Of a DNA stretch of 41,364 nt, positions 14,443 through 36,942 are shown piece by piece. Within the stretch, counting starts at the first letter, position 1. The number at the start of each line of letters is the position of its first letter. Location: NCBI GenBank assembly GCA_945875915.1, contig CAMCMT010000023.1, positions 1-41,364 on the forward strand, in the 5' to 3' direction. A model generated the notes under the pieces. The model did not search any database. It saw nothing but the letters and a program-made list of their open reading frames with translations, and was not told the DNA's origin. The stretch comes from Synechococcus sp. UW140. Its GTDB lineage: Bacteria; Cyanobacteriota; Cyanobacteriia; PCC-6307; Cyanobiaceae. Position numbers and translations under genes: made by a program.

Positions 14443-14790
14443 CTACGCATGGGACGTGATGCCTGCCAAGATAAGAACCCAGGCCGCTTTGCAGGCAGCA
14501 TGCAAAAACTGATCAACCGCTAAATTAAAGTATCCTTTGCATTTGCACGTATCGATAATACTATGCAAGATGAACTCTGCGCCGCCAAGCCAGATGTTAT
14601 TGGTTAAAAGTGAGACGACCAAGGCGTGGGTGCCAGCATGACCAGCCAGCCAATAGGTCCAGTGAACGCCAACAACAGAGGAGCCAGGGCATTTGCCTAT
14701 GGCTAATTTATCTGTTTGCAGTGGGTAATCAGCGAGGCAATGCCCAAATAGCAACAGAATAAAAAGTGGGACGCCGGCAACCCCAATCAT
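14443..14790 (-). CDS. DUF3307-like membrane protein
   Basis: Small hydrophobic protein of 115 residues. The arrangement GHCLADYPLQTDKLA, then HWTYWLAGHAGTHALVVSLL, then HSIIDTCK and VDQFLHAACKAAWV places conserved His and Asp residues in membrane helices. I recognise this as the DUF3307 pattern. Family members are found in many bacteria and some phages, and their function is unknown. The Cys-rich DTCKCKGY insertion is unusual. The gene is divergent from the ParA-like gene, with an inverted repeat in the space between the two starts. Confidence 0.7.
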   Translation of the reverse strand: MIGVAGVPLFILLLFGHCLADYPLQTDKLAIGKCPGSSVVGVHWTYWLAGHAGTHALVVSLLTNNIWLGGAEFILHSIIDTCKCKGYFNLAVDQFLHAACKAAWVLILAGITSHA

Positions 14791-19780: not shown

Positions 19781-22700
19781 ATGACAGCTACGCCCCCTCG
19801 AGGCCGCCAGAAGCTAAAGCCCGGTGCCGTGGTGCGCTGTCGCACGCGCCGTTACCTGGTCGAGGACGTGCAGGCTCCCCAGGACGCTGGCGGCGACACG
19901 GTTGTGTCCATGGCCTGCATGGAGGATGACGCGATTGGCGCCCGGCTGACGGTGTTCCGGGAACGGGAAATCGACTTTGAGCTGCTGGGGGAGAGCAGCT
20001 GGGATGCGGTCGCCCAGCGGGGGTTCGACCAGCCGAAGCAGTTCGCCGCCTACCTCAACACCCTCCGCTGGAACTGCGTCACTGCCACGGACGCGGAGCT
20101 GTTCCAGGCCCCCTACCGGGCTGGCATCGATGTGAAGGCCTACCAGCTGGAGCCCCTGCGCAAGGCCCTGCAGATGCCTCGGGTGGGCCTGTTCATCGCC
20201 GACGACGTGGGCCTGGGCAAAACGATCGAGGCTGGCCTGATCCTGCGGGAGATGCTGTTGCGCCAACGCATCAAGCGGGTGGTGATCAGCTGCCCGCCCT
20301 CGGTGCTGCGCCAGTGGCAGGAGGAAATGGCCAACCGCTTTGGCCTCGCTTTCACCGTGATGGACCGGGCCTACGTGGCCAAGGTGCGGCAGGAGCGGGG
20401 CTATGGCACCAATCCATGGAGCACCCACAGCCGTTTTCTGATCTCCCATGCCCTGCTGCGCAACTCGGAATACTCCGCTCCCCTGCGGGTTTGGCTGGAG
20501 CAAGGCAAGGGCGGGGAAGATCAGGCCTCTGTCCAGAGTTTGTTGATTCTCGATGAGGCCCACAATGCGGCGCCGGCCAGTAATTCACTTCGCTATGCCA
20601 TCGATTCAGGATTGACCCGCAGCCTGAGGGATCTGGCGCCCCTGTTCGAGCACCGAATCTTTCTGTCTGCCACACCCCATAACGGCCACAGCAATAGTTT
20701 CACCGCCCTACTGGAACTGCTCGATCCAGCCCGATTTGTGCGGGGCGTTCCCTTTGAGCCCGGGGATCTGGACACGGTCCTGGTGCGTCGCCTCAAGGAC
20801 GATCTGCGTCGCATCGGCGAGGAGTTCCCCGAGCGCATAGTCGAGGCCTTCTCCGTGCCGAAAGGAAGCCTGCCGGCCGACACCCCGGAGCTGGAGCTCT
20901 CACGGTTGCTTCAGAAATACCGCAAGCAGCGGGAGCAGCGGTTGATTCAGGGGGGAGCGACCAAGCGACAACTCAATGCCGATCGGTTGGTGATCACCAA
21001 CCTCCAAAAGCGGCTGCTGAGCTCGATCGAAGCCTTCGCCCGCACCCTCAAGGTTCATCGCAGGAGCCTCGATCAAAAGCAGGAGCAACGCCGCGAAGCC
21101 TCGGCCGCCAGGGGAATGCCCTTGGAACTATTGCTCGGTGGTGTGGAGTGCGACAGCGGCCTGGCTGAGCTCACGGAAGAGGAGCTGCTCAACCTGGAGG
21201 AGGCGCAAACCCGAGCGGCCCTGAGACAAACCCTTGAGGCTGACCAGAGCGATCTGACCCTGCTGGAGCGCATGGGCGAGATCGCGGAAGCCAACCGCAA
21301 CAGGCCTGATCCCCGGATCAAGCTGCTGGAGACCTTTCTGCGCACCCACCTTTGTCCCGATCTCGGGGAGGCCAACGCGGTGTGGCAGCCCACCCGTCTG
21401 TTGATCTTCACCGACTATGTCGATACCAAGCGCTACCTGGAGCGCCAGCTACGCGAACTCCTGGGCGATGACGATGCCGATCGACGCCTGGCGTCCTTCA
21501 CCGGTGGCATGGGCGAGGACACCCGCGAACGACTGAAGGCCCAGTTCAATGCCGATCCCGAGGACGAACCCCTACGGATCCTGATTGCCACCGATGCGGC
21601 CCGGGAGGGGGTGAACCTGCAGAACCACTGCAAGCACCTGATCCATTTCGACATCCCCTGGAACCCCAGCAAGCTGGAGCAACGCAACGGTCGCATCGAC
21701 CGCAAGCTCCAACGGGCTCCCCAGGTGTGGTGTCATTACTTCGTGCTCGAAGACCGCCCCGAGGATCGGGTGATGGATGTGCTCGTGCGGAAGACGGAGG
21801 TGATCCGCCAGGAGCTGGGGTCCCTCTCGCCCCTGGTGCAACGCCAAGTGGATGAGGTGCTCGAAGGCGGCATCGACACCGACAACAGCGATGCGGTGCA
21901 ACAGCAGCTGCTGGCCATGGATTCAAAGGCAACCGATCGCGGCGCCCTGCTGGACCGTGCCCGGGAGGAGTTGGACGCCAATCGGCGGGTGACGTCTTTG
22001 CAGCACCAGCAGGATGAATTGCGCCAGCTGCTGGCCAAATCCCACGACTGGCTGGGATTCGATGACGATCCCTTCCGCGAGGCCCTCAACTGCTCCTTTG
22101 ACCTGTTGGGAGTCGGTGGCCTCAAGGAAGGGCTTGATGACCAGGGGCAACCCTGTTGGCGCCTAGACCATCCCGAAACCCTCGCGGCGGGCAGCAACGA
22201 CCGCAGTTGGGACCACACCCTCGACAGCCTGCGAGGCCACTGGGACCGCAAAACCCCGCTCTGGCAATGGCGCCAGGAGAATCCGGTGCGGCCCGTGATT
22301 TTTTCCGACCCGGGACGCCTCAATGCCGAGGCCGTTCACCTGCATCTGGAGCATCGCCTGGTGCAGCGCCTGCTGAGTCGCTTTCTCAGCCAGGGCTTCC
22401 TGCACCACGAATTGAGCCGGGCCTGCGTGTTGGCCAGCCGGGATCCCCAACCCAAGGTGCTCGTGCTGGGGCGGTTGTCCCTGTTTGGCCTGGGGGCCAC
22501 CCGGCTGCACGATGAATTGATCAGCGTGATTGCCGATTGGCATCCAGGCGTTGATCGGGCGGCTGCACTCCAACCGCTGGGCGGCGATCAGCGCCAACAG
22601 GCCTGGGCGCTGCTGACCCAAGCCATGGCCGATGGTGGTATCCAGGCGATTACAGGCGAGACCCGCCGCCAACTCCAGGCTGAAGCGCCTGCGGATGTGG

Positions 22701-23137
22701 AGGCGCTCAAGCCAGCCCTCGATGGGGCTGCCAACCAGGCCTTGGCTGCCGCAGCGGAGCTGCTTAAGCAGCGGGGGGAACTGGAGGCTGCCGCCTTGCG
22801 CGACGTGCTCCGCAGCCAGCGCAAGCGCATCAACGCCACCGTGCGGCAACGCAACCAGGATCTGGCCAAGCTCGATCGCCGGGTCGCTGTTGCCGATCCC
22901 ACCGGCCTGATTCCAGGACTGGATGACCAGTTGGATGTGCCGGCCCTGGATCTCCAGAAACTCTCCAACCAGGAACGCAAACAACTGGCTGCCGACCAGA
23001 AACACTGGCAACGGCGGCTTGAAGTGATTGAAACGGAGCTGGCCAGCGAACCCAAACGCATCCAGGACAGCTACCGCGTCATCACCCACCGGCTGGAACC
23101 GGCCGGGCTTGTGTACCTCTGGCCGATCAGCGGCTAA
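19781..23137 (+). CDS. drmD: DISARM SNF2-family helicase DrmD
   Basis: Large helicase-like ATPase of 1118 residues and a defining member of class 1 DISARM. Motif I is DDVGLGKTIEAGLIL near residue 142, motif II is LLILDEAHNA near 258, and motif III is LSATPHNGH near 295. The C-terminal lobe has LLIFTDYVDTKRYLERQL, then IATDAAREGVNLQ near 603 and QRNGRIDR near 634. The remaining 480 residues are helical, with a Gln/Leu-rich coiled-coil stretch. The N-terminal 100 residues form a small domain ahead of the ATPase. In DISARM it is thought to move along or remodel DNA, but its exact step is not settled. The fic gene starts three bases after its stop. Confidence 0.9.
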   Translation: MTATPPRGRQKLKPGAVVRCRTRRYLVEDVQAPQDAGGDTVVSMACMEDDAIGARLTVFREREIDFELLGESSWDAVAQRGFDQPKQFAAYLNTLRWNCVTATDAELFQAPYRAGIDVKAYQLEPLRKALQMPRVGLFIADDVGLGKTIEAGLILREMLLRQRIKRVVISCPPSVLRQWQEEMANRFGLAFTVMDRAYVAKVRQERGYGTNPWSTHSRFLISHALLRNSEYSAPLRVWLEQGKGGEDQASVQSLLILDEAHNAAPASNSLRYAIDSGLTRSLRDLAPLFEHRIFLSATPHNGHSNSFTALLELLDPARFVRGVPFEPGDLDTVLVRRLKDDLRRIGEEFPERIVEAFSVPKGSLPADTPELELSRLLQKYRKQREQRLIQGGATKRQLNADRLVITNLQKRLLSSIEAFARTLKVHRRSLDQKQEQRREASAARGMPLELLLGGVECDSGLAELTEEELLNLEEAQTRAALRQTLEADQSDLTLLERMGEIAEANRNRPDPRIKLLETFLRTHLCPDLGEANAVWQPTRLLIFTDYVDTKRYLERQLRELLGDDDADRRLASFTGGMGEDTRERLKAQFNADPEDEPLRILIATDAAREGVNLQNHCKHLIHFDIPWNPSKLEQRNGRIDRKLQRAPQVWCHYFVLEDRPEDRVMDVLVRKTEVIRQELGSLSPLVQRQVDEVLEGGIDTDNSDAVQQQLLAMDSKATDRGALLDRAREELDANRRVTSLQHQQDELRQLLAKSHDWLGFDDDPFREALNCSFDLLGVGGLKEGLDDQGQPCWRLDHPETLAAGSNDRSWDHTLDSLRGHWDRKTPLWQWRQENPVRPVIFSDPGRLNAEAVHLHLEHRLVQRLLSRFLSQGFLHHELSRACVLASRDPQPKVLVLGRLSLFGLGATRLHDELISVIADWHPGVDRAAALQPLGGDQRQQAWALLTQAMADGGIQAITGETRRQLQAEAPADVEALKPALDGAANQALAAAAELLKQRGELEAAALRDVLRSQRKRINATVRQRNQDLAKLDRRVAVADPTGLIPGLDDQLDVPALDLQKLSNQERKQLAADQKHWQRRLEVIETELASEPKRIQDSYRVITHRLEPAGLVYLWPISG

Positions 23138-23140
23138 GCC

Positions 23141-24286
23141 ATGAAGCCTTCACTCTCGGCGCCATGGGCTCCCCATTACGACTACAGCGATGCGCTGGTG
23201 AACGACCTCTGCGTGGTCGCTGACGCCCGGGCGCGGGTGGGGTTGTTGCCACTGCCAGCAGATGAAAGCTTGCGGTTGCGCCACGCGGCCTATCAGCGCA
23301 GCACCCGTAGCAGCACTCGCATCGAAGGCAACCCTCTCGATGACCAGGCCGTGCGCGTGGCGATTGCAGCCGCTGATCGCGAGGGAAGCAAGGCCGAACA
23401 GGAGGTTCGCAACTACTGGCGTGCCCTCGACCGTGTGGAGGAATGGGCCCAGGGCAGCAGCCCCCTTAGCGAGGCCTGGATTCAGGAACTGCATGCCGTG
23501 GTGATCGTGCGGGGGCGGGGCCGCAGGCGACAACGAACGCCCTACCGCGACGATGAAGTGCCGGTTGTGGACACCGTCAGTCGCCGGATCGATTACGCCC
23601 CACCCAGGCCAGAGGATGTGGGCCCGTTGATGCAGCAGCTCTGCCAGTGGTGGCATGCCAGTGAGATGGTGCCACCCCTGATCCGGGCCGCCTTGCTCAG
23701 CCATCGCTTTATCTCCATCCACCCTTTTCCGGATGGCAATGGCCGCTGCGGGCGCTTGCTGGCTACGGCAGCGCTGTGGCGCAGCGGCTACGCCTTCCGG
23801 GGATTGCTGAGCTTCGAAGAATGGTTTGCGGCTGATCGGCAGAGCTACTACGCCGCCCTGCAATTGGGCTGCCCAGTGAACTTCTACGAGGGCCGCCACG
23901 ACCCCGATCACAGCCCATGGCTGAGCTACTTCTCCCATGTGATTGGCCAGGCGGCAGTGGACCTGGCCGCAAGAGCAGAAGCTCTTCAATCCCGCCAAGC
24001 GCAACCGGATCCCCACCCATGGGAAGGGCTCGACCGCCGCAGTCAGCAGCTGCTCACCCGATTGCGAGCCCGCGTAACAGCCGGCGAGGTCGAGGCCGCG
24101 CAGTTCAAGCCCGGCGACCTGGAGGAGTGGTTTGCGGTCTCACCAACGACAACTCAGGAATGGCTGCGCGACTGGCAGGCAGAGGGTCTGCTGGAACCCG
24201 CGAAGCCAGGTCAACGCATTCGCAGTTGGCGGCTCTGCGAGCCCTGGCTGGGGTGGGTCATAGGCCAACCGCACCAACGGGAATAG
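23141..24286 (+). CDS. Fic-domain AMP transferase with winged-helix tail
   Basis: Fic enzymes transfer AMP or related groups to hydroxyl side chains of target proteins. The complete catalytic motif HPFPDGNGRCGR begins near residue 194 (HxFxDGNGRxxR). An inhibitory-helix motif SSTRIEGNP lies near residue 56 in the N-terminal part, as in self-inhibited class II Fic proteins. The last 80 residues (VSPTTTQEWLRDWQAEGLLE) look like a winged helix, possibly for DNA binding. The length is 381 residues, typical for Fic/DOC proteins of the DUF4172/winged-helix kind. It starts three bases after drmD and must be co-translated or co-transcribed with it. It is not a canonical DISARM gene, so it may regulate the system or act as an abortive module. 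Confidence 0.88.
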   Translation: MKPSLSAPWAPHYDYSDALVNDLCVVADARARVGLLPLPADESLRLRHAAYQRSTRSSTRIEGNPLDDQAVRVAIAAADREGSKAEQEVRNYWRALDRVEEWAQGSSPLSEAWIQELHAVVIVRGRGRRRQRTPYRDDEVPVVDTVSRRIDYAPPRPEDVGPLMQQLCQWWHASEMVPPLIRAALLSHRFISIHPFPDGNGRCGRLLATAALWRSGYAFRGLLSFEEWFAADRQSYYAALQLGCPVNFYEGRHDPDHSPWLSYFSHVIGQAAVDLAARAEALQSRQAQPDPHPWEGLDRRSQQLLTRLRARVTAGEVEAAQFKPGDLEEWFAVSPTTTQEWLRDWQAEGLLEPAKPGQRIRSWRLCEPWLGWVIGQPHQRE

Positions 24287-24404
24287 AACAAGTGAATCTG
24301 AGCAAAACCACCACCCCTCGCCAAGACATCCCAGTTAAGGCATGCATTAGGGCTAAGCAATAAGCCAAGTCATCATTCAGCGTTAGCACCCATTTCTCGC
24401 CTCC

Positions 24405-27400
24405 ATGCCCCGCCGCCCCCCCACCACAGACCCCGAACTCAGGGCCCACCAGGAGTGGCTCGGCTACCTCCAGCCCGTGGGCCTGGTGGTGGCGCCGGCG
24501 GCGATGGTGGATGCCGGCTGGGTGGTGACCCGCAGCGGCAGCGATTGGATTGGGCGGCAGGACCGTTATCGCCAGGCCCTTGAACCCCTTGGTAGCCCCG
24601 ATGGGGATGGGGCCGATGGCGATGGCCTGGGTGACGAGAGCTCGGTGGGGGATGCCTTCGAAGGCGATGGGCTGCGGGGTTTCCGCGAACTCGAAAGCCT
24701 GCTGGTGGATCAGCTGGGCTGGCAAGCCGACCAGCTGGGCCGCACCCCTGAGCTGATTGATGCCTACAGCCGCGATCTGCCGGAACTGGGTGAAACCCTC
24801 AAGCCCTCGGCGGTGGTGGCAGCGGCCTCGGGGGGAGGGGCCCAGCTGTTGGTGTGGGAACTGCCCCTGGGGCTGGCCCTGGATCAGAAACAGAGCAGTG
24901 GCACCCAGCTCTGGCGCGCCAGCCCGCAAGAACGGTTTGAGCGGTTGCTACGCGATAGCGGCGTGGAGGCAGGGCTGCTGTTTAACGGCAGCCAGCTGCG
25001 GCTGGTGGTGGCCCCGAAGGGCGAGAGCTCGGGCCATCTCACCTTCCCACTGGCCGACCTGGCGGAGGTGGGCGGCCGCCTGATGGGCTCAGGGCTGGAG
25101 TTGTTGCTGGGCCAGAGCGCCGTGTTTTTCAACCCAGCGGGCACCCGCCTGGGCGATGTTCTTAAGGCCAGCCGCCACTTCCAGGCGGTGGTGAGCAATG
25201 CCCTGGCAGACCAGGTTTTGGCGGCCCTATGGGACCTGCTGCGCGGCATCGAGCAGGCCGACCAACTCAGCCAACGGCAAGGCGGCAGCCTGTTGGGCCC
25301 GATTGCCGACAGCGAGCCCCAGCAGCTCTACGGCGGCCTGATCACGGTGCTGATGCGGCTGGTGTTCCTGCTCTACGCCGAAGACGAGGCGCTGATGCCC
25401 AGCGATCCGGTGTACGAACAGAATTACAAGGTGAGCGGCATCTTTGAGCGGCTACAGCAGGACGCCGCCGAGTACCCCGACACGATGGACCAGCGCTACG
25501 GCGCCTGGGCCGGACTGATGAGCCTCTGCCGGCTGGTGTTTGCCGGCGGCGGCCCCAGCGAGGGTTACCTGCCGGCTCGCAAGGGCCAACTGTTTGATCC
25601 GGCGGCCTATCGGTGGCTGGATACGCCCTGGATCAGCGATGGCGTGGTGCTCTCGGTGCTCAGCAATTTGCTGGTGGTGAAGGGGGAGCGGATCAGTTAC
25701 CGGGCCCTGGATGTGGAGCAGATCGGCTCGGTGTATGAGGGGATCATGGGTTATGCGGTGCGGCGCCTGGCGGGCCGCTGCATCGGCCTAAAAAGCAAGC
25801 CCCAGGGCGCCAAGAAACAGATCACCACGGCGGTGGATCTCGACGCGCTGCTGGAACTGCCTGGCGCCAAACGCAAGGCCTGGCTGGAGGAAGAAGCGGG
25901 CACCAGCCTGCCCGCCAAGGCCGCCACGGCCTTGAAAGAGGCGCGCAGTGAAACCGACCTGCTTGCTGCCCTGGCCCCGCGGCTGGATCGCGACCTGTTT
26001 GAAGGCCCCCAGCCGGCCGGCAGCCTGGTGTTCCAACCCACCGAGGAACGGCGCCGCAGCGGCAGCCACTACACGCCCCGCTCCCTCACCCGGCCGATCG
26101 TGGCCGAGGCCCTGCGGCCCTGGCTGGAGCGCATGGCTCACCAGCCCAGCGCTGAGCAAATCCTGGCGTTGAAGATCTGCGATCCGGCCATGGGTTCGGG
26201 GGCCTTTTTGGTGGAGAGCTGCCGCTTCCTGGCCGAACTGCTGGAGCAGGCCTGGAGCCGCGACGGCCTACCCCAGGCGTTGCAACCTGGGGGCCGCGCC
26301 CATGGCGAAGAGCCGCTGCTCTATGCCCGCCGCCTGATTGCCCAGGGCTGCCTCTATGGGGTGGATAAAAACCCCTTTGCCGTGAATCTGGCGAGGCTGA
26401 GCTTGTGGCTGGTGAGCCTAAGTAAGGACGCACCGTTCACGTTTGTGGACCACGCCCTGCAATGCGGCGATTCCCTAGTGGGCATCGAGCGATCCGAGAT
26501 CGAGAAGGCCCTCAAGGGCGCCAGCCGGCAGCGCGAGATCCAGATGGCCTATCTCGATCAGGTGCGCCAACAGGAGGCCAAGTGCTTCGCCACGTTCCAT
26601 GCCGACAGCCGCAGCGATGCCGACGACGCTCAGAAGCGCCAGGCCCTCGACGATCTGAACGCCAGTACGGCCTACCTGCGCACGGTGGGCGACCTGCTGG
26701 TGGCGGCCTTCTTCAACGGCAAGAAGCCGAAGGATCGTGAGGAGCTGAAGAAGCTGTATCTGGAGGCCACGCTGCAGCACAGCACAGCCCAGGAGCTGGA
26801 AGAGGAACTGGCCGAACCGCTGGAGCGACTGCGTGAGGGCGAGAAGGGGATACAGCCGCTGCACTGGCAACTGGCTTTTCCTGATGTATTCGGACGGGCT
26901 CTAACGGGATTTGACGTATTCGTGGGTAACCCGCCCTTTGCAGGCAACAACACCTTCATTCAGGGCTATCCCGACGGTATTCTGGACTGGTTCAAACAGC
27001 TTCACCGGGAAAGCGGTGGACAGTGTGACCTAGTTGCTCATTTTTACCGCCGATGCTTTCATTTCCTACGAGTAGGCGGTTCTCTTGGCTTGATAGCAAC
27101 AAACACCATTGCCCAGGGCGACACCAGAGCCTCGGGATTGCGATGGATCTGCCTCAACGGCGGCTCTATCTATGCCGCACGCCGTCGCTATAAATGGCCC
27201 GGCATAGCTGCCGTAACTATAAGTATCGTCTATGTACACAATGGAGAGTATATCGGCAAAAGGTCTCTTGATTCCCTGCCTGTAGAGAGGATCACCGCTT
27301 TTCTCTTGTCCCAGGGTGGGGACGAAGATCCGAAGCAGCTGACTGCCAATTCAGGGTTTTGCTTCTCTGGAAGCCACGTAACTGGATCTGGATTTACTTT

Positions 27401-28613
27401 CGAAGACTGTGAAGATGCTGACTATGACACGCCAGGCACCCCATCGCCGGTCGCGAGAGTAGAGAGCCTAATCGAGGCCAATCCAGTGACCAGAGAGGCA
27501 ATTCACCCGTACATTGGGGGTGAGGAGATAAATAGCAGCCCGACTCATGCCTACTGCAGGTATATTATAAATTTTGGCGACATGGAAGAGGCGGAATGCA
27601 GGAGAAAATGGCCAGAGCTAATGAATATTGTAGAGAAGAAAGTTAAGCCGAGCAGAATGCTAAATAAGCGCGAATCCTATCGTAAATACTGGTGGCAATA
27701 CGCAGAAAAGAGGCCAGCATTATACGCACAATTGCAGAACTGCGAGCATGTGCTTATGCATTCGTTTACATCGAAATATCTTCAGTTCGCTCGCCTGGGG
27801 ACGGGCATTGTCTACGCTGCGCCTCATATTGTAATCACGCTGCCTGGCTGGCAATACTTTGGCGTTTTGCAGTCAACTCTTCACGAGGTTTACGTCTTGC
27901 ACACGAGTTCCACGCTAGAAGATCGCCTAAGCTATAAAGCTTCCGACTCGTTTGAGACATTTCCTTTTCCGTTTGGCCTATGCGTGGCAGAGGATATGCC
28001 TGATTCAACTATCGATGCGTCGTTTCAGGTTGCAAATATATCTTTTCTTTGTCACGAAAAACGTGCACAGCTGATGATTGCGAATGATGAAGGCCTCACA
28101 AGCACCTACAACCGCTTCCACGATCCCGCCGAAACGAGCAGCGGTCTCATGGAGCTGCGCAGGCTCCACGGCGGGATGGATCAAGCGGTGCTGAACGCCT
28201 ACGGCTGGAGTGATGTGTCCACGGCCTACGGCTTCGGCCTCGATTACCTCGATCTCGAAGAAGACGCCCACCTACCCGAGGACCTGCTGCAGCGCATCGA
28301 CGACGGCGAGCTGTTCTTCTTGGACGCAGGCGATGCCCTCGATTTCCAGGGCCAGCTGCAGGCCTACGGCGCCATCACCGGCCGCCGCAAACTGCCCTGG
28401 CGCTACCGCTGGCCCGATGCCGTGCGGGATGACGTGTTGGCGCGGCTGCTTGCCCTGAACGCCGAGCGCTATGCCGAGGAGGTGGCGCTGGGGTTGCACA
28501 GTAAGGGGGGGAAGAAAGCTGCACCAGCGGCAGCGGGGGACGTTAAACGGCGCGGCCGCCCGCCGAAAGCGGCCCTGGCCACCGATGGACATCAGATCGG
28601 ACTGGCCCTATGA
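24405..28613 (+). CDS. drmMI: DISARM N6-adenine DNA methyltransferase DrmMI
   Basis: Protein of 1402 residues that is expected to methylate adenine at the host recognition site. SAM-binding motif I is DPAMGSGAFLVES near residue 593, and the catalytic NPPF is in FVGNPPFAGN near 842. The N-terminal 590 residues carry a helical region but no clear PD-(D/E)xK nuclease motif. DNA between about 26.9 and 28.1 kb (residues 830-1230) is visibly more AT-rich, with rare codons such as ATA. This is where the target-recognition domain should lie, which suggests replacement of specificity. The C terminus has an AT-hook-like KRRGRPPKAAL. The 118-bp gap before the start is the longest in the locus and might hold an internal promoter. 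Confidence 0.9.
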   Translation: MPRRPPTTDPELRAHQEWLGYLQPVGLVVAPAAMVDAGWVVTRSGSDWIGRQDRYRQALEPLGSPDGDGADGDGLGDESSVGDAFEGDGLRGFRELESLLVDQLGWQADQLGRTPELIDAYSRDLPELGETLKPSAVVAAASGGGAQLLVWELPLGLALDQKQSSGTQLWRASPQERFERLLRDSGVEAGLLFNGSQLRLVVAPKGESSGHLTFPLADLAEVGGRLMGSGLELLLGQSAVFFNPAGTRLGDVLKASRHFQAVVSNALADQVLAALWDLLRGIEQADQLSQRQGGSLLGPIADSEPQQLYGGLITVLMRLVFLLYAEDEALMPSDPVYEQNYKVSGIFERLQQDAAEYPDTMDQRYGAWAGLMSLCRLVFAGGGPSEGYLPARKGQLFDPAAYRWLDTPWISDGVVLSVLSNLLVVKGERISYRALDVEQIGSVYEGIMGYAVRRLAGRCIGLKSKPQGAKKQITTAVDLDALLELPGAKRKAWLEEEAGTSLPAKAATALKEARSETDLLAALAPRLDRDLFEGPQPAGSLVFQPTEERRRSGSHYTPRSLTRPIVAEALRPWLERMAHQPSAEQILALKICDPAMGSGAFLVESCRFLAELLEQAWSRDGLPQALQPGGRAHGEEPLLYARRLIAQGCLYGVDKNPFAVNLARLSLWLVSLSKDAPFTFVDHALQCGDSLVGIERSEIEKALKGASRQREIQMAYLDQVRQQEAKCFATFHADSRSDADDAQKRQALDDLNASTAYLRTVGDLLVAAFFNGKKPKDREELKKLYLEATLQHSTAQELEEELAEPLERLREGEKGIQPLHWQLAFPDVFGRALTGFDVFVGNPPFAGNNTFIQGYPDGILDWFKQLHRESGGQCDLVAHFYRRCFHFLRVGGSLGLIATNTIAQGDTRASGLRWICLNGGSIYAARRRYKWPGIAAVTISIVYVHNGEYIGKRSLDSLPVERITAFLLSQGGDEDPKQLTANSGFCFSGSHVTGSGFTFEDCEDADYDTPGTPSPVARVESLIEANPVTREAIHPYIGGEEINSSPTHAYCRYIINFGDMEEAECRRKWPELMNIVEKKVKPSRMLNKRESYRKYWWQYAEKRPALYAQLQNCEHVLMHSFTSKYLQFARLGTGIVYAAPHIVITLPGWQYFGVLQSTLHEVYVLHTSSTLEDRLSYKASDSFETFPFPFGLCVAEDMPDSTIDASFQVANISFLCHEKRAQLMIANDEGLTSTYNRFHDPAETSSGLMELRRLHGGMDQAVLNAYGWSDVSTAYGFGLDYLDLEEDAHLPEDLLQRIDDGELFFLDAGDALDFQGQLQAYGAITGRRKLPWRYRWPDAVRDDVLARLLALNAERYAEEVALGLHSKGGKKAAPAAAGDVKRRGRPPKAALATDGHQIGLAL

Positions 28614-28656
28614 AGTTCGACCCTTGGCCAGCCATACGAAACGCCTGATCACCACC

Positions 28657-29172: not shown

Positions 29173-29668
29173 GCCTGAGCCCCGCCGCCGCCGCGGCACG
29201 CCGATCAGCGACAGCCTTGGCGACGATCTCCACGCCCTGGGCAGCATCCTTGCCAACCACACCCGCGGCCTCGACGACTACCTCCATCGCCAGGCCGCTC
29301 GGATCGAGGAACGCCAAAGCCATCTCCTCTCTGAATCCGCGGAAATCCTTCTACCACCGGGCCCAGATCTCAACACCCTCACTGCCGGGGAGTTACAGAA
29401 CATTTGCCGGCAGCAGCGGTTGCGTGGCTGGTCGAAGCTTCGCCGAAGCGAACTGATCGCCTTCCTCAAGGATAGGTTCGGAACTGAGCTGAAGGCCCCA
29501 ACCATCTCAGCGCCTTCCTATCCCCACGATGCCAACCGCCTTGAGCGATTGCTCCTGCTGTTGCTGCGGCAACTCGGCACCGCTACCGAAGCCATCGATG
29601 ACGCCTGGCAAGGGCCAAGGAACCAAACAGCTGACCAACCTGCCTCCGTGGGTACAGTCGACCAATGA
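29162..29668 (+). CDS. SAP/Rho-N-like domain protein in the DISARM locus
   Basis: Product of 168 residues. Residues about 72-105 read LTAGELQNICRQQRLRGWSK followed by LRRSELIAFLKDRF. This helix-extended-helix pattern matches the SAP or Rho N-terminal fold used to bind nucleic acid. A basic stretch EPRRRRG lies near the N terminus. A Leu-rich helix (LERLLLLLLRQLG) near residue 130 may mediate oligomerisation. I chose the ATG at 29162, coupled to the previous gene by an 11-bp overlap. The stop overlaps the next start as ATGA. It may direct a complex to DNA, perhaps with the coiled-coil neighbour; no such DISARM component is known to me. Confidence 0.7.
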   Translation: MTNKPEPRRRRGTPISDSLGDDLHALGSILANHTRGLDDYLHRQAARIEERQSHLLSESAEILLPPGPDLNTLTAGELQNICRQQRLRGWSKLRRSELIAFLKDRFGTELKAPTISAPSYPHDANRLERLLLLLLRQLGTATEAIDDAWQGPRNQTADQPASVGTVDQ

Positions 29669-29982
29669 GCCTTGCTCTTGCCAAGCTCCAGCTGGTCGCG
29701 TTCGCCTATGCCTGCCGGGAGCACCAGATGCTGCGCATGCATCTGCTTGGTTCGTCCCTGCGCGACGACTTCGATCCCAGCTGCAGTGACCTAGAGCTCT
29801 TGGTGGAGTGCCAGTCGATCGAGCCAGGCGCCCTTGTGCAGGCTTATTTCGGCCTGGGGCGCCAACTGGAGTCGATCACAGGCAAGCCGGTGGATCTAGT
29901 GATGGCCGATGCCGTGCGTAACCCCTACGTGCGCCGCGACATCGAGGCATCGAAGCAGCTGATCTATGGGGTCGTGGCATGA
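29665..29982 (+). CDS. MNT-type nucleotidyltransferase, altered active site
   Basis: Small MNT-fold protein of 105 residues. The nucleotidyltransferase signature GSSLRDDFDPSCSDLELLVE begins at Gly29. The usual second catalytic Asp is Glu44 here (D42-L-E44), which may lower activity. VDLVMADAVRNPYVRRDIE is a typical MNT C-terminal strand-helix pattern. MNT proteins act as antitoxins to HEPN toxins by adding AMP to them. It is followed by a second MNT gene with an ATGA overlap and then a HEPN gene, so there are two candidate antitoxins and one toxin. Confidence 0.8.
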   Translation: MSLALAKLQLVAFAYACREHQMLRMHLLGSSLRDDFDPSCSDLELLVECQSIEPGALVQAYFGLGRQLESITGKPVDLVMADAVRNPYVRRDIEASKQLIYGVVA

Positions 29983-30299
29983 AAGTGGCTCCCAGTGCCA
30001 TGAGCCCACCATCAGCTGATCAGGTTTTGGCCCTCCTTCGTTCACACCAACCCATTTGGCAGCAGCGCTATCAGCTGCAACGCATCGGCCTGTTCGGCTC
30101 AACAGCCCGCAACGAGGCCACTGCCCAGAGCGATGTGGATGTGTGGGTCGAGCTGGATCCCCTCACCCCCTTCGCCACAGTGCACCTGAAGCAGGAGCTG
30201 GAAGCGCTGTTGCAGCGTCCGGTCGATCTGGTGCGCCTGCGCGAACGCATGAACCCTGCCCTGCGTCAGGCCATCCTGAGGGAGGGTGTCAGCGCATGA
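29979..30299 (+). CDS. MntA-like antitoxin nucleotidyltransferase
   Basis: MNT-fold enzyme of 106 residues with an intact catalytic signature: GLFGSTARNEATAQSDVDVW, where Gly40-Ser41 binds phosphate and Asp52 and Asp54 bind metal. VDLVRLRERMNPALRQAIL closes the fold. In the characterised MntA/HepT pair the MNT enzyme adds AMP units to a Tyr near the HEPN active site and so neutralises it. The ATG overlaps the previous stop, and its own stop overlaps the HEPN start as ATGA. This is the more likely true antitoxin of the two. Confidence 0.88.
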   Translation: MKVAPSAMSPPSADQVLALLRSHQPIWQQRYQLQRIGLFGSTARNEATAQSDVDVWVELDPLTPFATVHLKQELEALLQRPVDLVRLRERMNPALRQAILREGVSA

Positions 30300-30670
30300 G
30301 CAGTGATCTGCTTCTACTGCTCATGCCGCTGCGGCAGGCCCTCGAGCGGATCAACCGCAAGGTCCAGCCCCTTCTGGCCGATCCGACCCTGCTGGATAGG
30401 GAGGAGGGCCAGGACCTGCTCGATGTCATCTGCATGCAGTTCCTCGCGGCTGGGGAGGCGCTCAAGCGGCTGGAGAAGCTTGAGCCTGGCCTGCTGACTT
30501 CCAACTACCCGGACATCGACTGGAAAGGCGCCATGGGTTTCCGCGATGTCATCGCCCATCAATATTTCGATCTAGACGCTGAGCAGGTGCTGCTGATCTG
30601 TCAGGACGCTTTGCCAGGTTTGCTCAGCGCGATTCGCTCCCTCGAAGAACAAGCCAGCAAGAGCAGCTGA
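30296..30670 (+). CDS. HepT-like HEPN toxin (DUF86)
   Basis: HEPN-fold protein of 124 residues, usually an RNase or tRNA-cleaving toxin. The RX4HXY motif is exact: RDVIAHQY at residues 83-90, with Arg83, His88 and the modifiable Tyr90. DLLDVICMQFLAAGEALKRL is the conserved helix of DUF86. This is the toxin half of a type VII HepT/MntA module. It ends three bases before drmA, so the module lies within the DISARM transcript, where loss or stress of the locus could release the toxin. I chose the ATG at 30296 over longer frames because of its ATGA overlap with the MNT gene and the family's usual start. Confidence 0.88.
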   Translation: MSSDLLLLLMPLRQALERINRKVQPLLADPTLLDREEGQDLLDVICMQFLAAGEALKRLEKLEPGLLTSNYPDIDWKGAMGFRDVIAHQYFDLDAEQVLLICQDALPGLLSAIRSLEEQASKSS

Positions 30671-30673: not shown

Positions 30674-33600
30674 ATGACTACCTCCGCCGAGATCCGCCAA
30701 CACCTGGTCGATGCCCTTCGCATCGATTTGATCGGTCCCGATTGGGATGACGTGGCCAGGCGGCATGAACAGATCAACCAGCCACCATCGGTGCGCTACA
30801 CCACGGGCTTCCTTGTGCCCCATGTCTTCCAGCAGGAGGCCGGCCGCACCACACAAGATCAGCAGCTCTCTTTCTCCGATCTCGCTGGGGAAGAACCCAG
30901 TAACGACGCCTCCAATCGCCTGGAGAAAAAAGAGAAGGAAGACGACGCCAACGACACCCTCGATCAGGCCAACACCCGCCGCAGTTGGTTTCCCTCTTCC
31001 CTGGGCCTGAGCTTTATTGCCAATCAGGGCGCCAGCTTGGAGGTGGTTGTGAGCTGGGGTGATTACAGCGCTCCTGTCGAAGGAGACAAAGACAAGATCT
31101 GGAGCCGCACCCCCCAGCGGCAAGCCGTCACGTTCTCGATCGAAGGCCCCGGCACTAGCCCAGATATCCCCCTCGAAGGCAATACTCAAGGCCTATGCCT
31201 GCGCTGGATCGCCCGGCCGGCACCGAAAAAGCTCAACTATCCAAGCGATCAACTTTCGGTCTCGCTCTTTCTGCTCAATAAGCGCGAGTCACCGCCCAAA
31301 CAGATCCGCTATCGCGATCCGGTCACGGCTTTCCAGGCGGAACTCTCGCTCCGTTGCCAAGCAGGCTTTCCGCCCCGCCGCGATGCCCTGCAGCAGGCCG
31401 CCAAGGATCCCGATGAACGCCTGGCGGCCCTCCAATACCGCCGCGATTACTGCTTTGCCAGCGGCCACAACGTCGCCGTGATCGCCGCCGATATCCCAGA
31501 CGAAAACCCTGCCATCTGCCACACCCTCACCACCACCTGGCTACCGACAGCCCGGGTTTTCCGCACGCTGCCAGAGCCACCCGCCGGCACCAACGTGCCG
31601 ATGGATATGGAGGCCCTAGCGGATCTGGCCCGCAGCGAACGGATCGGGCAGGAGCTGATGCCGATGGTGAAGGCCTACCGCGGCTGGATCACCCAGCAAC
31701 CCAAACACCCGATTAGCGACCCAGCTCAGAACGAAACCGCCAAGCAGCTCCGGGCCCAGGCAGAAGACTGTGCCAGGCGCATTGAGAACGGGATCAAGCT
31801 GCTCAGCGATCCCTTGGTGCGAGAGGCCTTCCGCACCATGAACCTGGTGATGGCCCGCGCCAGTCGGCAGCGCAGTGCCTTCAGCGCCAAGGTGCCGCCC
31901 GATCAAATCGGCATTGCACCAAACACCCGGAGTCCCAAGTGGCGCTTCTTCCAGCTGGCCTTTGTGCTGATGAACCTGCCGGGTCTCGCCACACCAGATA
32001 GCCCAGACGGCCGGCTGGATCGTGAGGCTGTTGAACTGCTCTTCTTCCCCACCGGTGGCGGCAAAACCGAGGCCTACCTGGGCCTGGCCGCGTTCACCTT
32101 GGTGCATCGCCGCCTGCAGAGCCCAGGGATCGAATCAGCCGGCCTCACCGTGTTGATGCGCTACACCCTGCGGCTGCTCACCCTCGATCAGCTCAGCCGG
32201 GCTGCCACCTTGATCTGCGCATTGGAGCTGGAGCGGCTTGAGCGCGCTGAGCAAGCTCTCCCGTATCCGCTGGGTGACTGGCCCTATGAGATCGGCATGT
32301 GGGTGGGAAAGGCCGCCACACCCAACAAGCTGGGTGGCCCGGGCGACAGCGACCAGCAGTCCACCCATGCCGTACTCAACAACTGGAAATCAGGCAAACG
32401 TGAGCGTCCGATCCCGATCGAAACCTGCCCCTGGTGCAACCGCCCCCTACAGCCTGAGGGGTTTCATCTACTGCCTCCCAAGAACCCTGATCGGCTTGAG
32501 ATCTACTGCCGCGAGCCCAGATCACCAGACGCCAAACAGGAATTTGCCCATATGGGTCCGTGCGCTTTCCACAAGGGCACACCATTACCGGTGCTGCCGG
32601 TGGATGAGCAGATCTACCGCCGGCTGCCCTGCTTCCTAATCGCCACGATCGATAAGTTCGCTGCCCTGCCCTGGGTTGGTAAAACTTCGTCCCTTTTTGG
32701 CAATGTCAGCACCTATCAGCTGCCCACAGGCAATGGCGCTGCTGGTTTCTGGGGTCCGTCTGAGAAGGCTGTTGGTGGGCTCAAGATTCCCCATGGCCGG
32801 CTACTGCCACCAGCGCTCGTCATTCAGGACGAACTGCACTTAATCAGTGGACCGCTCGGCACCCTCGCTGGCCTCTATGAAACGGTGATTGAGGCCCTGA
32901 TGCGTCCAGACGCCTCTACGCCGCCGCCCAAGATCATCGCCTCCACCGCCACCGTGCGTAGGGCTGAGGCTCAGATCAAGGCCCTATTTGCCCGCAGCCA
33001 GGTGCGCATCTTTCCGCCGCCAGGCCCGGAGCGTGATGACAACTTCTTTTCGCGCACGATTCAAGATCCAGACCAGGCCCGTCTCTACGTCGGCCTCTCA
33101 GCGCCGGGCCGAAACCTCAAGGGTGTACTGCTGCGCTCCTACCTGGGCCTGATGGCTGCAGCTCAGAAGGGCTGGAACGACAACAAGGCCATGGGTGCGA
33201 ATAACCCAGCCGATCCCTACATGACCCTGCTTGGCTACTTCTCCAACCTCAAGGAGCTGGGCGTCACCCGCAGCATCCTGGAAGACGAGCTCGGTGGCCA
33301 GCTGGAGCAGTTTGCTAAAAACCGAGCCCTTGACATGGAGGGCTTCATTAATCCGTTTGCTTCTCGTAAGCGGCCCAATGAACCGCAGGAGCTCACTTCT
33401 CGCGTCAACACCGCCAAGATCAGCAGCACCAAAGATCGGCTCTCCAAGCCCTACGTCGACAAGGACCACCTCGATGTGGCCCTAGCCACCAACATGATTT
33501 CGGTGGGCCTCGACATCTCTCGCCTGGGGCTGATGGTGGTGCTCAACCAGCCGAAAACCGCCGCCGAATACATCCAGGCCACCAGCCGCGTCGGCCGCCA

Positions 33601-34210
33601 GCTGAGCGACAACCCGGAGCAGAACAAGCCGGGGCTAGTGCTGGTGCTGCTCAACCCCAACCGCCCAAGGGATCGCTCCCATTTCGAGCTGTTTCCCTAC
33701 TGGCACCAAACCTTCTACCGGCATGTGGAGGCCACCAGTTGCACGCCTTTCGCCAGCCGGGCCCTTGATCGAGGTTTGCCTGGGGTGGTCGTGGCCATGG
33801 CTCGCCACGGTGATCCAGCCCTGGCTGGTGCCAAAGGCGCGATGGCTGCGGACGCGCTGCAGCGCATCAAGGCTCAGATCGCCCAGGCTCTGCAGGATCG
33901 TTGCATTGCTACCGGTGCCGCCGATGACAGCCTCGACGAGCACCTGCCCACCGAAGTGCGCGATCACGTGATCGATCTGCTGGAAGCTTGGTGGAAACTC
34001 ACCCAGGAACCGGAGGCCAAGCTGCAGTACTGGACCCATGAGGAAAAAGGCGCTGGTGCCGGCTTGCTGCACACAGCCCTTGATAATGAACCGATCTACC
34101 AAACCGAGGGCTATAAGCAGTTCAGCACCAACTGGAGCCTGCGTGATGTGGAGCCTTCTGCTCCGATCCGGATGGTGAACTTCAGGGAAGAAATCACCGC
34201 CGACGACTGA
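30674..34210 (+). CDS. drmA: DISARM helicase DrmA
   Basis: Superfamily 2 helicase of 1178 residues. Walker A is FFPTGGGKTEAYLGL near residue 459, the DEAH-equivalent is IQDELHLISGPLG near 719, and motif III is IASTATVRRAE near 757. The C-terminal lobe has TNMISVGLDISRLG and YIQATSRVGRQ, with arginine fingers near 968. A CPWC motif near residue 585 suggests a zinc ribbon between the lobes. The DELH form and the zinc insertion are characteristic of DrmA. The N-terminal 450 residues form a separate domain. With DrmB it forms the core DISARM complex that loads onto DNA with 5' overhangs. The gene starts three bases after hepT. Confidence 0.9.
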   Translation: MTTSAEIRQHLVDALRIDLIGPDWDDVARRHEQINQPPSVRYTTGFLVPHVFQQEAGRTTQDQQLSFSDLAGEEPSNDASNRLEKKEKEDDANDTLDQANTRRSWFPSSLGLSFIANQGASLEVVVSWGDYSAPVEGDKDKIWSRTPQRQAVTFSIEGPGTSPDIPLEGNTQGLCLRWIARPAPKKLNYPSDQLSVSLFLLNKRESPPKQIRYRDPVTAFQAELSLRCQAGFPPRRDALQQAAKDPDERLAALQYRRDYCFASGHNVAVIAADIPDENPAICHTLTTTWLPTARVFRTLPEPPAGTNVPMDMEALADLARSERIGQELMPMVKAYRGWITQQPKHPISDPAQNETAKQLRAQAEDCARRIENGIKLLSDPLVREAFRTMNLVMARASRQRSAFSAKVPPDQIGIAPNTRSPKWRFFQLAFVLMNLPGLATPDSPDGRLDREAVELLFFPTGGGKTEAYLGLAAFTLVHRRLQSPGIESAGLTVLMRYTLRLLTLDQLSRAATLICALELERLERAEQALPYPLGDWPYEIGMWVGKAATPNKLGGPGDSDQQSTHAVLNNWKSGKRERPIPIETCPWCNRPLQPEGFHLLPPKNPDRLEIYCREPRSPDAKQEFAHMGPCAFHKGTPLPVLPVDEQIYRRLPCFLIATIDKFAALPWVGKTSSLFGNVSTYQLPTGNGAAGFWGPSEKAVGGLKIPHGRLLPPALVIQDELHLISGPLGTLAGLYETVIEALMRPDASTPPPKIIASTATVRRAEAQIKALFARSQVRIFPPPGPERDDNFFSRTIQDPDQARLYVGLSAPGRNLKGVLLRSYLGLMAAAQKGWNDNKAMGANNPADPYMTLLGYFSNLKELGVTRSILEDELGGQLEQFAKNRALDMEGFINPFASRKRPNEPQELTSRVNTAKISSTKDRLSKPYVDKDHLDVALATNMISVGLDISRLGLMVVLNQPKTAAEYIQATSRVGRQLSDNPEQNKPGLVLVLLNPNRPRDRSHFELFPYWHQTFYRHVEATSCTPFASRALDRGLPGVVVAMARHGDPALAGAKGAMAADALQRIKAQIAQALQDRCIATGAADDSLDEHLPTEVRDHVIDLLEAWWKLTQEPEAKLQYWTHEEKGAGAGLLHTALDNEPIYQTEGYKQFSTNWSLRDVEPSAPIRMVNFREEITADD

Positions 34211-34231: not shown

Positions 34232-36130
34232 ATGCCTGCCTCCACCCGCCGTAAAGCTGCTCCCCCGCCCCTCGGCGAAGCACGTCAAAGCCAGGTGCTC
34301 CAGCTCTACGGGCCTGGCGCAATGGTCGATCTGCCCGACTACTCCCTACTGATTGGGGGGTTGGATTTCTGGAACAACAAAGGTTGTGATCTGATCCATG
34401 AGCCGCGCCTGCTGCAGTTGGTGCGGCAGGCCACCGGGATGGCCCGGGTTGACTTGCGCACTCCACCCAAAGAGGAGGATCCGCTTAAAAAAGTCAGCGG
34501 CTCAATCAAGGCGTTTCGCTTCCCCGAGTGGTCCGTGGCTCAGAAGGTGAGCGAGCGGGTGGCCTTTGGGATTCCCTGCCGGGCCAGGCCCCTGGTGCAC
34601 TTCAACGATGGCTGCATCTCGGACTGGCGCACCTATCAAGACGATGAGGGCAAGTACCCGGTGGTGCCGGTTCGCTTCGTGATGGCCTGCCCCCATGGCC
34701 ACCTCAGCGACATCCGCTGGCGCGATTTCTGCTTTCGTCAGTTCGGCTGTAAGAACAGCGAACGCCTCTACCTGCTGGAAGCCGGCACCGGCAACGACTT
34801 CACCCAGATCTATGTGCAGTCAGAAGGCGGCACAACCCGCAAGCTCGCTGATGCCTTGGTCACGGAAATGAGCCCCCTTGGGCTCTGCCAAGGGCAGACC
34901 CCCTGGCTGGGCCGCAACGCCCGCGACCCTGACAAGTGCAAAACCGATGGAGAACCCACCCAAAACCGGCTACTGGTGCGCTCGGCCACCAATGCCTACT
35001 TCACCGAGACCCTCTCGGTGATCTCGCTGCCGGAGGAAGCCAATTCCCTGGCCAAACGTGTCACCGAACTCAACGACGACCTCGCCTTAATCGAAGCGGA
35101 AGCCGATGTAGCAGCAGCTCTCAAGTTCAACCCTCGCCTTAAAAGCGCCTTCGCTGGTGTGGATCCCGGGCTGCTCTGGCAATCGATCGAGGCTCAACGG
35201 GGAGGCATCACCGGCCAGGCAGCCCAACCCAAGGATGAAGAGCTGGCCCTGCTGATTGGCCCGATGGATGGGGTCTCCAGCTCTGCGGAAGGGAGCCTCT
35301 TTGAAGCCGATCAATGGCAGCCCCCCAACCCGCCCGCCTGGTTCAGCAAAGCCATCAAACGGGTGTTGCTGGTACACCGCCTGCGGGAGGTTCAGGCCTT
35401 GGTGGGATTCACCCGCTTTACGGCCCGCACCAGCAGTCTTGGCGGCTTGCCGATCGACACCACCAAGGTGAACGGCCGAGCACCGCTGGCCAACGATCTG
35501 CGCTGGGTGCCGGCCAGTGAGAACAAGGGGGAAGGGATCTTTATCGAGTTCGATCCCGCCACGATCAAGGCTTGGGCCGCCAGTGATCCGGTGCAGATGC
35601 GAGCCGGTCAATTCACCAAGGCCTTCGAGAACGAATGGCTGGTGTCGCGTGGTCTCGACGCTAAACAGTTCCCCTTCCCAGGAGCTCCCTACCTCCTGCT
35701 CCATAGCCTCAGCCACCTGTTGATTACGGAGATGGCCCTGGAGTGTGGCTATGGCGCCAGCTCGATTCGCGAGCGCATTTACGCCAACAAAGAGATCGGC
35801 TACGGCATCTTGCTGTTTACTAGCAGTTCGGGATCGGAAGGCACTCTGGGCGGCCTAGTTGGGGTCGGTAAGCGGATCGTCAATTATCTGGACAAGGCCT
35901 TTGAGCGCGGCCAGCTCTGCAGCAACGACCCCTTCTGCTCCGAGCACGATCCCAACCATCCCTTTGATATCCGGCCTACCCATGGAGCCGCTTGCCATGG
36001 ATGTGAGTTGATTGCCGAAACGTCGTGCGAAATTCGTAACGAGTTTCTGGATCGATCCCTGGTGAGTCCAACGGTCTCGGTGGTGTCGGACGCCGACGAT
36101 CCCTCGTTCTGGAGCTTCATCAACCGATGA
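34232..36130 (+). CDS. drmB: DISARM DUF1998 protein DrmB
   Basis: Partner of DrmA, 632 residues. The DUF1998 core is visible in LLLHSLSHLLITEMALECGY followed by SSIRERIY. The C-terminal cysteines (CSNDPFCSEHDPN, then CHGCELIAETSCE) are likely zinc ligands. More Cys/His pairs occur around MACPHGHLSD and the Cys-Lys-Asn segment, as expected for a multi-zinc protein. The start is 21 bp after drmA, and its stop overlaps drmC as ATGA. The length and domain order agree with DrmB. Confidence 0.9.
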   Translation: MPASTRRKAAPPPLGEARQSQVLQLYGPGAMVDLPDYSLLIGGLDFWNNKGCDLIHEPRLLQLVRQATGMARVDLRTPPKEEDPLKKVSGSIKAFRFPEWSVAQKVSERVAFGIPCRARPLVHFNDGCISDWRTYQDDEGKYPVVPVRFVMACPHGHLSDIRWRDFCFRQFGCKNSERLYLLEAGTGNDFTQIYVQSEGGTTRKLADALVTEMSPLGLCQGQTPWLGRNARDPDKCKTDGEPTQNRLLVRSATNAYFTETLSVISLPEEANSLAKRVTELNDDLALIEAEADVAAALKFNPRLKSAFAGVDPGLLWQSIEAQRGGITGQAAQPKDEELALLIGPMDGVSSSAEGSLFEADQWQPPNPPAWFSKAIKRVLLVHRLREVQALVGFTRFTARTSSLGGLPIDTTKVNGRAPLANDLRWVPASENKGEGIFIEFDPATIKAWAASDPVQMRAGQFTKAFENEWLVSRGLDAKQFPFPGAPYLLLHSLSHLLITEMALECGYGASSIRERIYANKEIGYGILLFTSSSGSEGTLGGLVGVGKRIVNYLDKAFERGQLCSNDPFCSEHDPNHPFDIRPTHGAACHGCELIAETSCEIRNEFLDRSLVSPTVSVVSDADDPSFWSFINR

Positions 36131-36942
36131 GCGCCCCGCTTGGGAAGGGGCAGATCCCCTCCCTTCCGGCCCTCACTTTGAGGCGGGTTGCGAAGGATCT
36201 CAGGGCTCTGAGCTATTTGCCCACCAGCTGGAAGGGGTTGCTTGGCAGCCATAGCCAAGTGATTCAGCAGCAATTGGAGCCCTTGTTGGTCGAGATGGTG
36301 AAGGAAGGCGCCCATCCTCGCCTGATGGCGTTGCTTCTTGAGCGGATTGCCGACGCTCAGGAAACCTTGCAGGCTGAGCGCAATGCTTGGAGCTTCGTGT
36401 GCTCGGGGCCCGATCCCCTTCATTCCCAGACGGCTGATAGCTATGCAACGGTTGATCAGCTGGTCAAGGAGGCTAGGCGTTCCCTGTTGATTGCTACCTA
36501 CAACATTGGCCTTAGTAGTGACTTCAAGCAGTTGTATGGAACCATTGCAGAGCGGCTTCGGTTGGGCCAGCTTGAAAGGGTTGATTTGTTTTTCCATCCC
36601 ATCCAGATCGCTGATCAACTTGGGGCCGATCCCATGGCCAAAATTAGCAGTTGGTTCAACACTGACATATGGCCCTGGCCAGCCAAACCCAGAGCCTATG
36701 TGGATAGCCGTTTAATCAATGGCTCTAATGATCGCTGCTTTCAACATGCCAAGGTCGTTGTTGCTGATTCTGGCTCTTCAGCGGCAAAGGCCTTGGTAAC
36801 CAGTGCGAATTTTAGTGAAACAGCGCAACGTCATAATTTCGAGGCTGGTTGGCTGGTGTGTGATCAGTGGCGGGTCAGCCAAGTCCAACAGCATTTTGAT
36901 GGTCTTGTGGCTGACGGGCTGTTTGTTGAGGTGTTGGGTTAG
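36127..36942 (+). CDS. drmC: DISARM phospholipase-D-like protein DrmC
   Basis: Product of 271 residues with a single clear PLD (HKD) motif: HAKVVVAD near residue 207, followed by LVTSANFSETAQRHNFEAG. PLD-family proteins with one HKD motif usually form dimers and act as nucleases. In DISARM, DrmC is a candidate effector but is dispensable in some tests of other systems. The ATG overlaps drmB. It is the last gene of the DISARM run. After it the composition becomes AT-rich and the genes change strand. Confidence 0.88.
   Translation: MSAPLGKGQIPSLPALTLRRVAKDLRALSYLPTSWKGLLGSHSQVIQQQLEPLLVEMVKEGAHPRLMALLLERIADAQETLQAERNAWSFVCSGPDPLHSQTADSYATVDQLVKEARRSLLIATYNIGLSSDFKQLYGTIAERLRLGQLERVDLFFHPIQIADQLGADPMAKISSWFNTDIWPWPAKPRAYVDSRLINGSNDRCFQHAKVVVADSGSSAAKALVTSANFSETAQRHNFEAGWLVCDQWRVSQVQQHFDGLVADGLFVEVLG

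Follow-up and report, generated by a model that had tools for sequence, protein, structure and literature searches.

The window analysed here, a stretch of 41,364 nucleotides from Synechococcus sp. UW140 (contig CAMCMT010000023.1), carries, on its plus strand, a picocyanobacterial DISARM operon of class 1, and between drmD and drmMI of this operon lies an intact gene for a Fic enzyme of class II, the auto-inhibited type, related to SoFic. We give about an even chance to the reading that this Fic is an optional plug-in effector in the drmD–drmMI slot and not a fixed subunit of the system. Across relatives, fic is gained and lost at this site and swapped by recombination, and toxin–antitoxin pairs occupy the same place in other DISARMs.

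All five core proteins that the PADLOC rule for class 1 DISARM comprises according to PMC9252829, DrmA, DrmB, DrmC, DrmD and DrmMI, were matched in the window. As in class 1 DISARM, their genes follow in order on one strand: drmD, encoding the SNF2-like helicase of class 1 DISARM (19781..23137; PADLOC DrmD 1031.8 bits, residues 9–1116), the methyltransferase gene drmMI (24405..28613; DrmMI 1190.7 bits), drmA (30674..34210; 826.6 bits), drmB (34232..36130; 223.8 bits) and drmC (36127..36942; 417.3 bits). The window operon differs in two interruptions, fic behind drmD and MNT/HEPT genes behind drmMI. Two plus-strand ORFs between drmMI and the MNT genes (28471–29172 and 29057–29668) had no Pfam match. 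No DrmE match was found among the window proteins scanned against PADLOC, a set to which these two ORFs did not belong.

The fic ORF (23141–24286, plus strand, 381 aa, ATG start) is separated from drmD by three bases only; drmD ends at 23137 with TAA (23135–23137), then follow GCC and the fic ATG. Coordinates and the reading of the junction hence agree with the preliminary description, which had placed fic three bases behind drmD. Because of this closeness of stop and start codons, fic is probably translated together with drmD. Fic enzymes share the catalytic consensus HxFx(D/E)GNGRxxR, and class II members have the inhibitory consensus (S/T)xxxE(G/N) on a helix preceding the Fic core. Here, the catalytic consensus is matched by HPFPDGNGRCGR (residues 194–205; 23720..23755, plus), with H194, D198, G199, N200, G201 and R202 invariant in 22 of 22 aligned relatives. 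The inhibitory consensus is matched by S58-E62-G63 within SSTRIEGNP (residues 57–65; 23309..23335, plus), three residues that are equally invariant (22/22), and the structural model places a helix at 40–61. A complete catalytic motif combined with an inhibitory one, as read in the preliminary description, is therefore present in the translation. In terms of the class scheme (PMC12249575) the protein belongs to class II, and profile searches matched Pfam Fic (PF02661, E 8.6e-20) and the PADLOC SoFic model (2.5e-47, 160 bits, model positions 54–345 of 361).

An AlphaFold2 model of the full protein had a mean pLDDT of 84 and aligned with 4rgl (Z 28.9, rmsd 8.2 over 317), with FICD 4u0u (Z 27.3, 2.5 Å over 248 residues) and with SoFic 3zcn (Z 25.6, 4.1 Å over 272). 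Foldseek agreed in matching it to class II Fic structures. The range aligned on FICD and SoFic includes helix 40–61, which leads into the inhibitory motif. Both motifs lie in the folded Fic core of the model, and a motif geometry incompatible with such a core, which had been named as a possible objection, was not seen. The earlier proposal of a regulated AMP transferase inside DISARM is thus backed by a fold of the auto-inhibited class II type that recurs across genomes. The proposed winged-helix tail (about residues 290–381; 24008..24283, plus) stands in part. Modelled alone, it reached pLDDT 85 and resembled MarR, ArsR/SmtB and IdeR winged helices in Foldseek, with weak scores (best E 0.01), and a Pfam search of the tail gave no match. 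At the level of its predicted fold, the tail may accordingly be described as a winged helix.

Recurrence of the arrangement was surveyed in 400 genomes of the family; drmD was matched in 73 of them (E of 1e-30 or better) and a Fic protein of any kind in 66 (E of 1e-10 or better). When copies of the DISARM-type fic are taken as Fic-match rows from 63% identity that belong to this fic, 18 genomes contain it. Twelve have an open frame (G000, G118, G291, G167, G099, G303, G154, G108, G366, G324, G133, G008), five only broken copies (G140, G242, G267, G163, G091), and in G360 the gene is cut by the contig end. All 12 open frames come immediately after drmD or a remnant of it, and the distance from the drmD stop to the fic start was 2 or 3 nt in each of the 11 fic loci read. 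The adjacency survey proposed in the preliminary description thus revealed an arrangement that is not unique to the window; its recurrence in 12 genomes, some with a drmD remnant, makes it more than chance. The drmD ahead of the open fic is itself decayed, interrupted or truncated in G366, G008 and G324, and in G303 the contig starts inside drmD. The fic genes of G366 and G008 have codon deletions (seven and five codons, respectively). On a metagenome-assembled contig of G324 (L008:2–1777), a truncated drmD (residues 164–409) continues in frame into fic, entering it at residue 30, so that the two form a single open frame; this is either a deletion fusion or an assembly artefact. G099 and G154 have an additional broken fic elsewhere in the genome. 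Two broken fics (L108:4334–4977 and L129:487–1126) share nearly the same internal deletion of about residues 75–242, that is, the catalytic core, and retain the 3′ repeat array described below. The plasmid and phage collections contained no close fic, with one plasmid match at 33% and one phage match at 29%.

The slot itself has variable contents. Around 20 close drmD genes it is empty in eight, holds fic in nine and another gene in three. In eight close relatives lacking fic, the start codon of drmMI lies 2 nt behind the stop of drmD, from which it follows that the empty slot is a tight junction. The three other genes encode proteins of 340, 528 and 266 aa with no Pfam or PADLOC match. A second drmD clade (about 50% identity, 16 loci) features PIN/RHH pairs in four loci, MNT/HEPN pairs in two, both in two and an empty slot in eight; the PIN/RHH pair lies on the minus strand. 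Pfam names in this clade were obtained for L113, L114, L115 and L126, and the remaining loci were named by similarity to those. Other cyanobacteria (11 loci; survey: 16 of 386 genomes) have assorted genes, other ORFs or nothing in the slot, for example, MNT/HEPT-like genes (L153), an AlbA_2/RecG-like plus ParA-like pair (L144) or a DUF433 gene (L154).

On a tree of 47 drmD proteins, nine of them from fic loci, 6 changes suffice for the fic label, whereas shuffled labels took 8.5 on average and 10 of 500 shuffles did with as few. All six slot labels together need 20 (24.1 on average after shuffling, with 1 of 200 shuffles reaching so low a number). The tree was built by a quick method and 15 of its 44 inner branches are weak. 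Slot contents are thus mildly clustered on the drmD tree and often changed. Loci with broken or missing drmD (L110, L127–L130) and those where no drmMI was found behind drmD (L149, L151) stand outside the tree set. Three loci with gaps as long as about 290 nt (L146, L148 and L155) are included under 'empty', L148 and L155 showing no ORF of 70 aa; L101 is counted as fic though no drmMI follows, L108 though its fic is broken, and L145, counted as other, has only two ORFs of 73–74 aa, which consist of repeat-like sequence. No fic was found behind drmD in the 10 annotations read among 23 plasmid DISARM matches. In eight of these 10, drmD is followed at a distance of no more than about 250 nt by a methylase or RM gene; a Trichormus plasmid has three minus-strand genes between drmD and the methylase/RM gene, and a Nostoc plasmid has an IS4 transposase interrupting the RM gene that comes after drmD. 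In two alphaproteobacterial plasmid DISARMs, toxin–antitoxin genes, namely a Phd-type antitoxin and an RHH/PIN pair, are found immediately upstream of drmD (L183:5792–5989, L184:5306–5989).

Given the empty sites and broken copies, we reject fic as a fixed component of DISARM; with empty sites and other cargo in close relatives, a part needed by the system is likewise unsupported. Further evidence against such a need comes from L108, where the broken fic stands beside drmD, drmMI and drmA, and from L101, where the drmD–fic pair occurs without drmMI.

In a comparison with L097, the window shows 94–96% DNA identity over the fic segment, against 71–77% for the adjoining drmD end and 69% for drmMI beyond its first 300 bases. 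Another drmMI stretch (26081–26680) also reaches 93–96%; the operon hence is a mosaic. Synonymous divergence for the same comparison is 0.16 in fic versus 0.79 in drmD. The fic tree joins the window and G118 with G291 and G167 (95/96), in conflict with the drmD tree, in which G291 and G167 are set apart together with G108 (100/100 for the pair). The fic gene thus moves as a unit, its exchange being uncoupled from the neighbouring genes, and losses are frequent as well. With dN/dS of 0.08–0.21 (11 genes compared in 55 pairs, dS being close to saturation in many of them), fic is under purifying selection and kept as a protein.

The 3′ end of fic is marked by a direct-repeat array on the plus strand. 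A repeat scan of the window yielded a weak copy inside the fic 3′ end (A1, 24260..24272), one overlapping the stop codon (A2, 24283..24295) and one 77 nt further on (A3, 24360..24372); a degenerate fourth copy (A4, 24383..24395), 23 nt after A3, was placed by eye. The fic–drmMI gap, 118 nt in the window, measures 113–139 nt across fic loci. In all 13 fic loci examined, with up to three mismatches allowed, the 13-bp repeat lies over the fic stop and again 77 nt on, a spacing of 76 being found in L009 and L026, and the weaker A1 stands 23 nt before A2 in most of them. Mean majority-base frequency is 0.86 in A2 and 0.84 in A3, against 0.55 between them and 0.64 behind; the strip behind A3 is variable in length and the A2–A3 strip hardly varies. 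In single DISARM arrays the triple-repeat score showed no clear gain over the shuffle maximum (window 25/24, L003 27/28, L005 24/26, L007 24/26, L009 27/26). The case for the DISARM array therefore rests on recurring position and spacing in interrelated loci.

Stand-alone fics of filamentous cyanobacteria (54–58% identical) have the same layout with the related motif ATARCGGAAGT (ATAACACAAGT in L011): A1, 22–23 nt, A2, 85–95 nt, A3 and, some 23 nt later, a degenerate A4 recognised by eye, with sites spanning −51 to +343 relative to the fic stop. Their triple-repeat scores were 32–36 with a shuffle maximum of at most 28 (L010–L015, L018; L016 24/26), and seven of eight Firmicutes-side loci (L019–L024, L027, L030) stayed below the shuffle maximum, L021 being marginal (28/26). 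The A2–A3 pair was found six times in nine genomes reached via stand-alone loci, always at the 3′ end of a fic of this subfamily; the arrays of L011, L014 and L016 escape the strict pattern, as others may. One of the six, a second copy in the L015 genome, is followed some 330 nt further by a phage-integrase-family gene. The array is no common genomic repeat, since the strict stand-alone-type A1–A2 pattern occurred in none of 386 sampled Cyanobacteriota genomes. The strict DISARM-type pair was absent from the window's own genome, which says little, as the window A2 deviates from the pattern. A further A2-type copy with two mismatches to the consensus lies in the window at 14428–14443 (minus), where it follows the stop of the minus-strand ORF 14443–14790 at a distance of three bases, and may be due to chance.

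The array is tied to fic and common to its stand-alone and DISARM forms; recombination site and binding site for the winged-helix tail are the candidate functions. Neither promoter nor terminator was found between fic and drmMI, and no structured RNA either (RNAalifold no pairs in 11 sequences, Rfam nothing). A small overlapping gene as the cause of the constant 77-nt spacing is not favoured; no common protein sequence was apparent by eye, and L009 and L026 show a 1-nt change. The array was also tentatively set aside as an integron attC site or Tn7-like end, by comparison with the general features of such sites, and no inverted array partner was found upstream of the stand-alone fics. We may tentatively speculate, while regarding it as rather unlikely, that fic and its 3′ array form a mobile one-gene cassette, with a recombinase or transposase acting on the array and placing the gene exactly between a stop and the next start. 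As a variant, the Fic tail could bind the array and take part in its own placement or control. If the cassette reading is true, DISARM operons would collect and swap single-gene effectors, somewhat like integrons with a different site type.

The nearest functional relative of the window Fic is SoFic/EcSofic, a single-gene anti-phage Fic (PADLOC SoFic; PDB 3eqx, 3zcn). According to PMC12249575, EcSofic is a toxic AMPylator that needs its C-terminal domain for toxicity and is countered by a small antitoxin, AS1, encoded downstream (47 aa in E. coli H397). The window Fic shares the class II core, the N-terminal inhibitory motif and, going by the tail model, probably also a C-terminal wHTH-like domain. 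It differs from the solved SoFic by an identity of about 20%, by its place inside a DISARM operon, by the 3′ repeat array and by the lack of an identified AS1 gene; the 118-nt gap is too small for a separate AS1-sized gene, and overlapping frames exist. With animal FICD/HYPE (PDB 4u0u, 6i7g) it has the core fold including the inhibitory-helix region in common, at 22% identity, and differs in having no TPR part, in being bacterial and in its defence context. PIN/RHH (VapBC/FitAB type) and MNT/HEPN pairs resemble fic in occupying the drmD–drmMI slot of other DISARMs; unlike fic, they are two-gene systems with a separate antitoxin and other chemistry.

By analogy to FICD and SoFic, the N-terminal helix with SSTRIEGN would keep Fic inactive at rest. 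Upon infection, or when DISARM is overcome, inhibition might be lost, and Fic would then AMPylate a host target and stop growth, as SoFic suggests. Such arrest could act as an abortive backup to direct restriction by DISARM. An abortive effector was one of three roles raised in the preliminary description, and the relation to SoFic (PMC12249575) lends it some support. The effector reading draws on the SoFic profile match together with the class II fold, on the toxicity of EcSofic, on the low dN/dS of fic and on the constant position of the open fics behind drmD; changing slot contents and exchange of the fic segment argue for cargo. Against it, the SoFic match is of moderate strength, the second Fic of L101 scoring 360.7 bits on the SoFic model, so that the window Fic must be a distant SoFic relative; moreover, only broken copies remain in five of 18 fic genomes, which fits a burden or a passenger equally. 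From the frequent loss it follows that any benefit is conditional at best.

The other two roles of the preliminary description appear improbable to us. As a DISARM modifier, Fic would AMPylate or de-AMPylate a Drm protein, e.g., DrmD or DrmMI, and so set the activity of the system; this would agree with purifying selection and with the constant place of all 12 open copies directly behind drmD. It is hard to reconcile with 11 of 20 close drmD genes lacking fic in DISARMs that work by all signs, with the broken fic persisting beside drmD, drmMI and drmA in L108, with exchange of fic independent of drmD and with the missing drmMI behind fic in L101. Much the same low probability attaches to a regulator whose winged-helix tail binds the array between fic and drmMI to control drmMI or fic itself. 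The putative wHTH-like tail, the conserved, length-constrained repeats directly behind fic and the association of the array with this fic subfamily also outside DISARM would suit such a role. Yet the array lies 3′ of fic, and in the stand-alone loci L010 and L011, where it is present, the next gene is convergent, leaving nothing downstream to regulate; the array is therefore unlike an operator of a downstream gene. Furthermore, no promoter was recognised in the fic–drmMI gap, and the SoFic tail serves catalytic control (PMC12249575).

Toxin–antitoxin modules can also protect the loci that carry them, as CreTA guards CRISPR-Cas. Fic could in analogy be an addiction or guard module whose toxic activity would strike cells in which the DISARM operon has been lost or silenced, much like the slot toxin–antitoxin pairs; the occurrence of type II pairs in the same slot of other DISARMs points this way. 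We nevertheless hold a guard to be unlikely, given a single-gene Fic with built-in inhibitory helix and no labile antitoxin identified, and empty slots and broken fic copies that are common. Similarly small is the likelihood that Fic has no role in defence and rides along on a mobile cassette as a neutral passenger. Its scattered occurrence, its exchange and frequent decay, and an array that may function in recombination are what a passenger would show, whereas low dN/dS, intact motifs in the copies compared and insertion time and again at one and the same codon boundary of a single defence operon speak against it.

DISARM is described as a direct, methylation-guided defence. In the literature searched, with most subscription journals outside the search, we found no description of a fic or a cargo slot in DISARM. 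If a slot for exchangeable growth-arresting enzymes is real, many DISARMs would pair restriction with a cell-stopping backup, and strains that differ in slot contents would make this pairing directly testable. The fic-linked array offers a tangible starting point for asking how individual defence genes might travel from one operon to another.

Cargo is also found further downstream in the operon. Between drmMI and drmA, the window contains two MNT-type nucleotidyltransferase genes in tandem followed by a single HepT-like gene (29665..30670, plus; Pfam NTP_transf_2 and HepT-like PF01934; PADLOC PDC-S09). In L097 and L113, unlike the window, mnt1 has its own HepT-like ORF directly after it. Five DISARM loci (L105, L091, L095, L103, L113) carry a second, distant Fic (24–26% identical) on the minus strand just upstream of drmA, such as L105:11208–12536 with 138.6 bits on PADLOC SoFic; the drmMI–drmA gap therefore represents a second cargo slot. 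L101 (G167) has a Phd/YefM antitoxin-like gene and the high-scoring second Fic behind its DISARM-type fic (minus-strand ORFs 11312–12421 and 13291–13581). Directly upstream of the window operon, a gene for an MscS-type channel (17489–19003) encodes a cyclic-nucleotide-binding domain with a weak match to Pycsar effector models.
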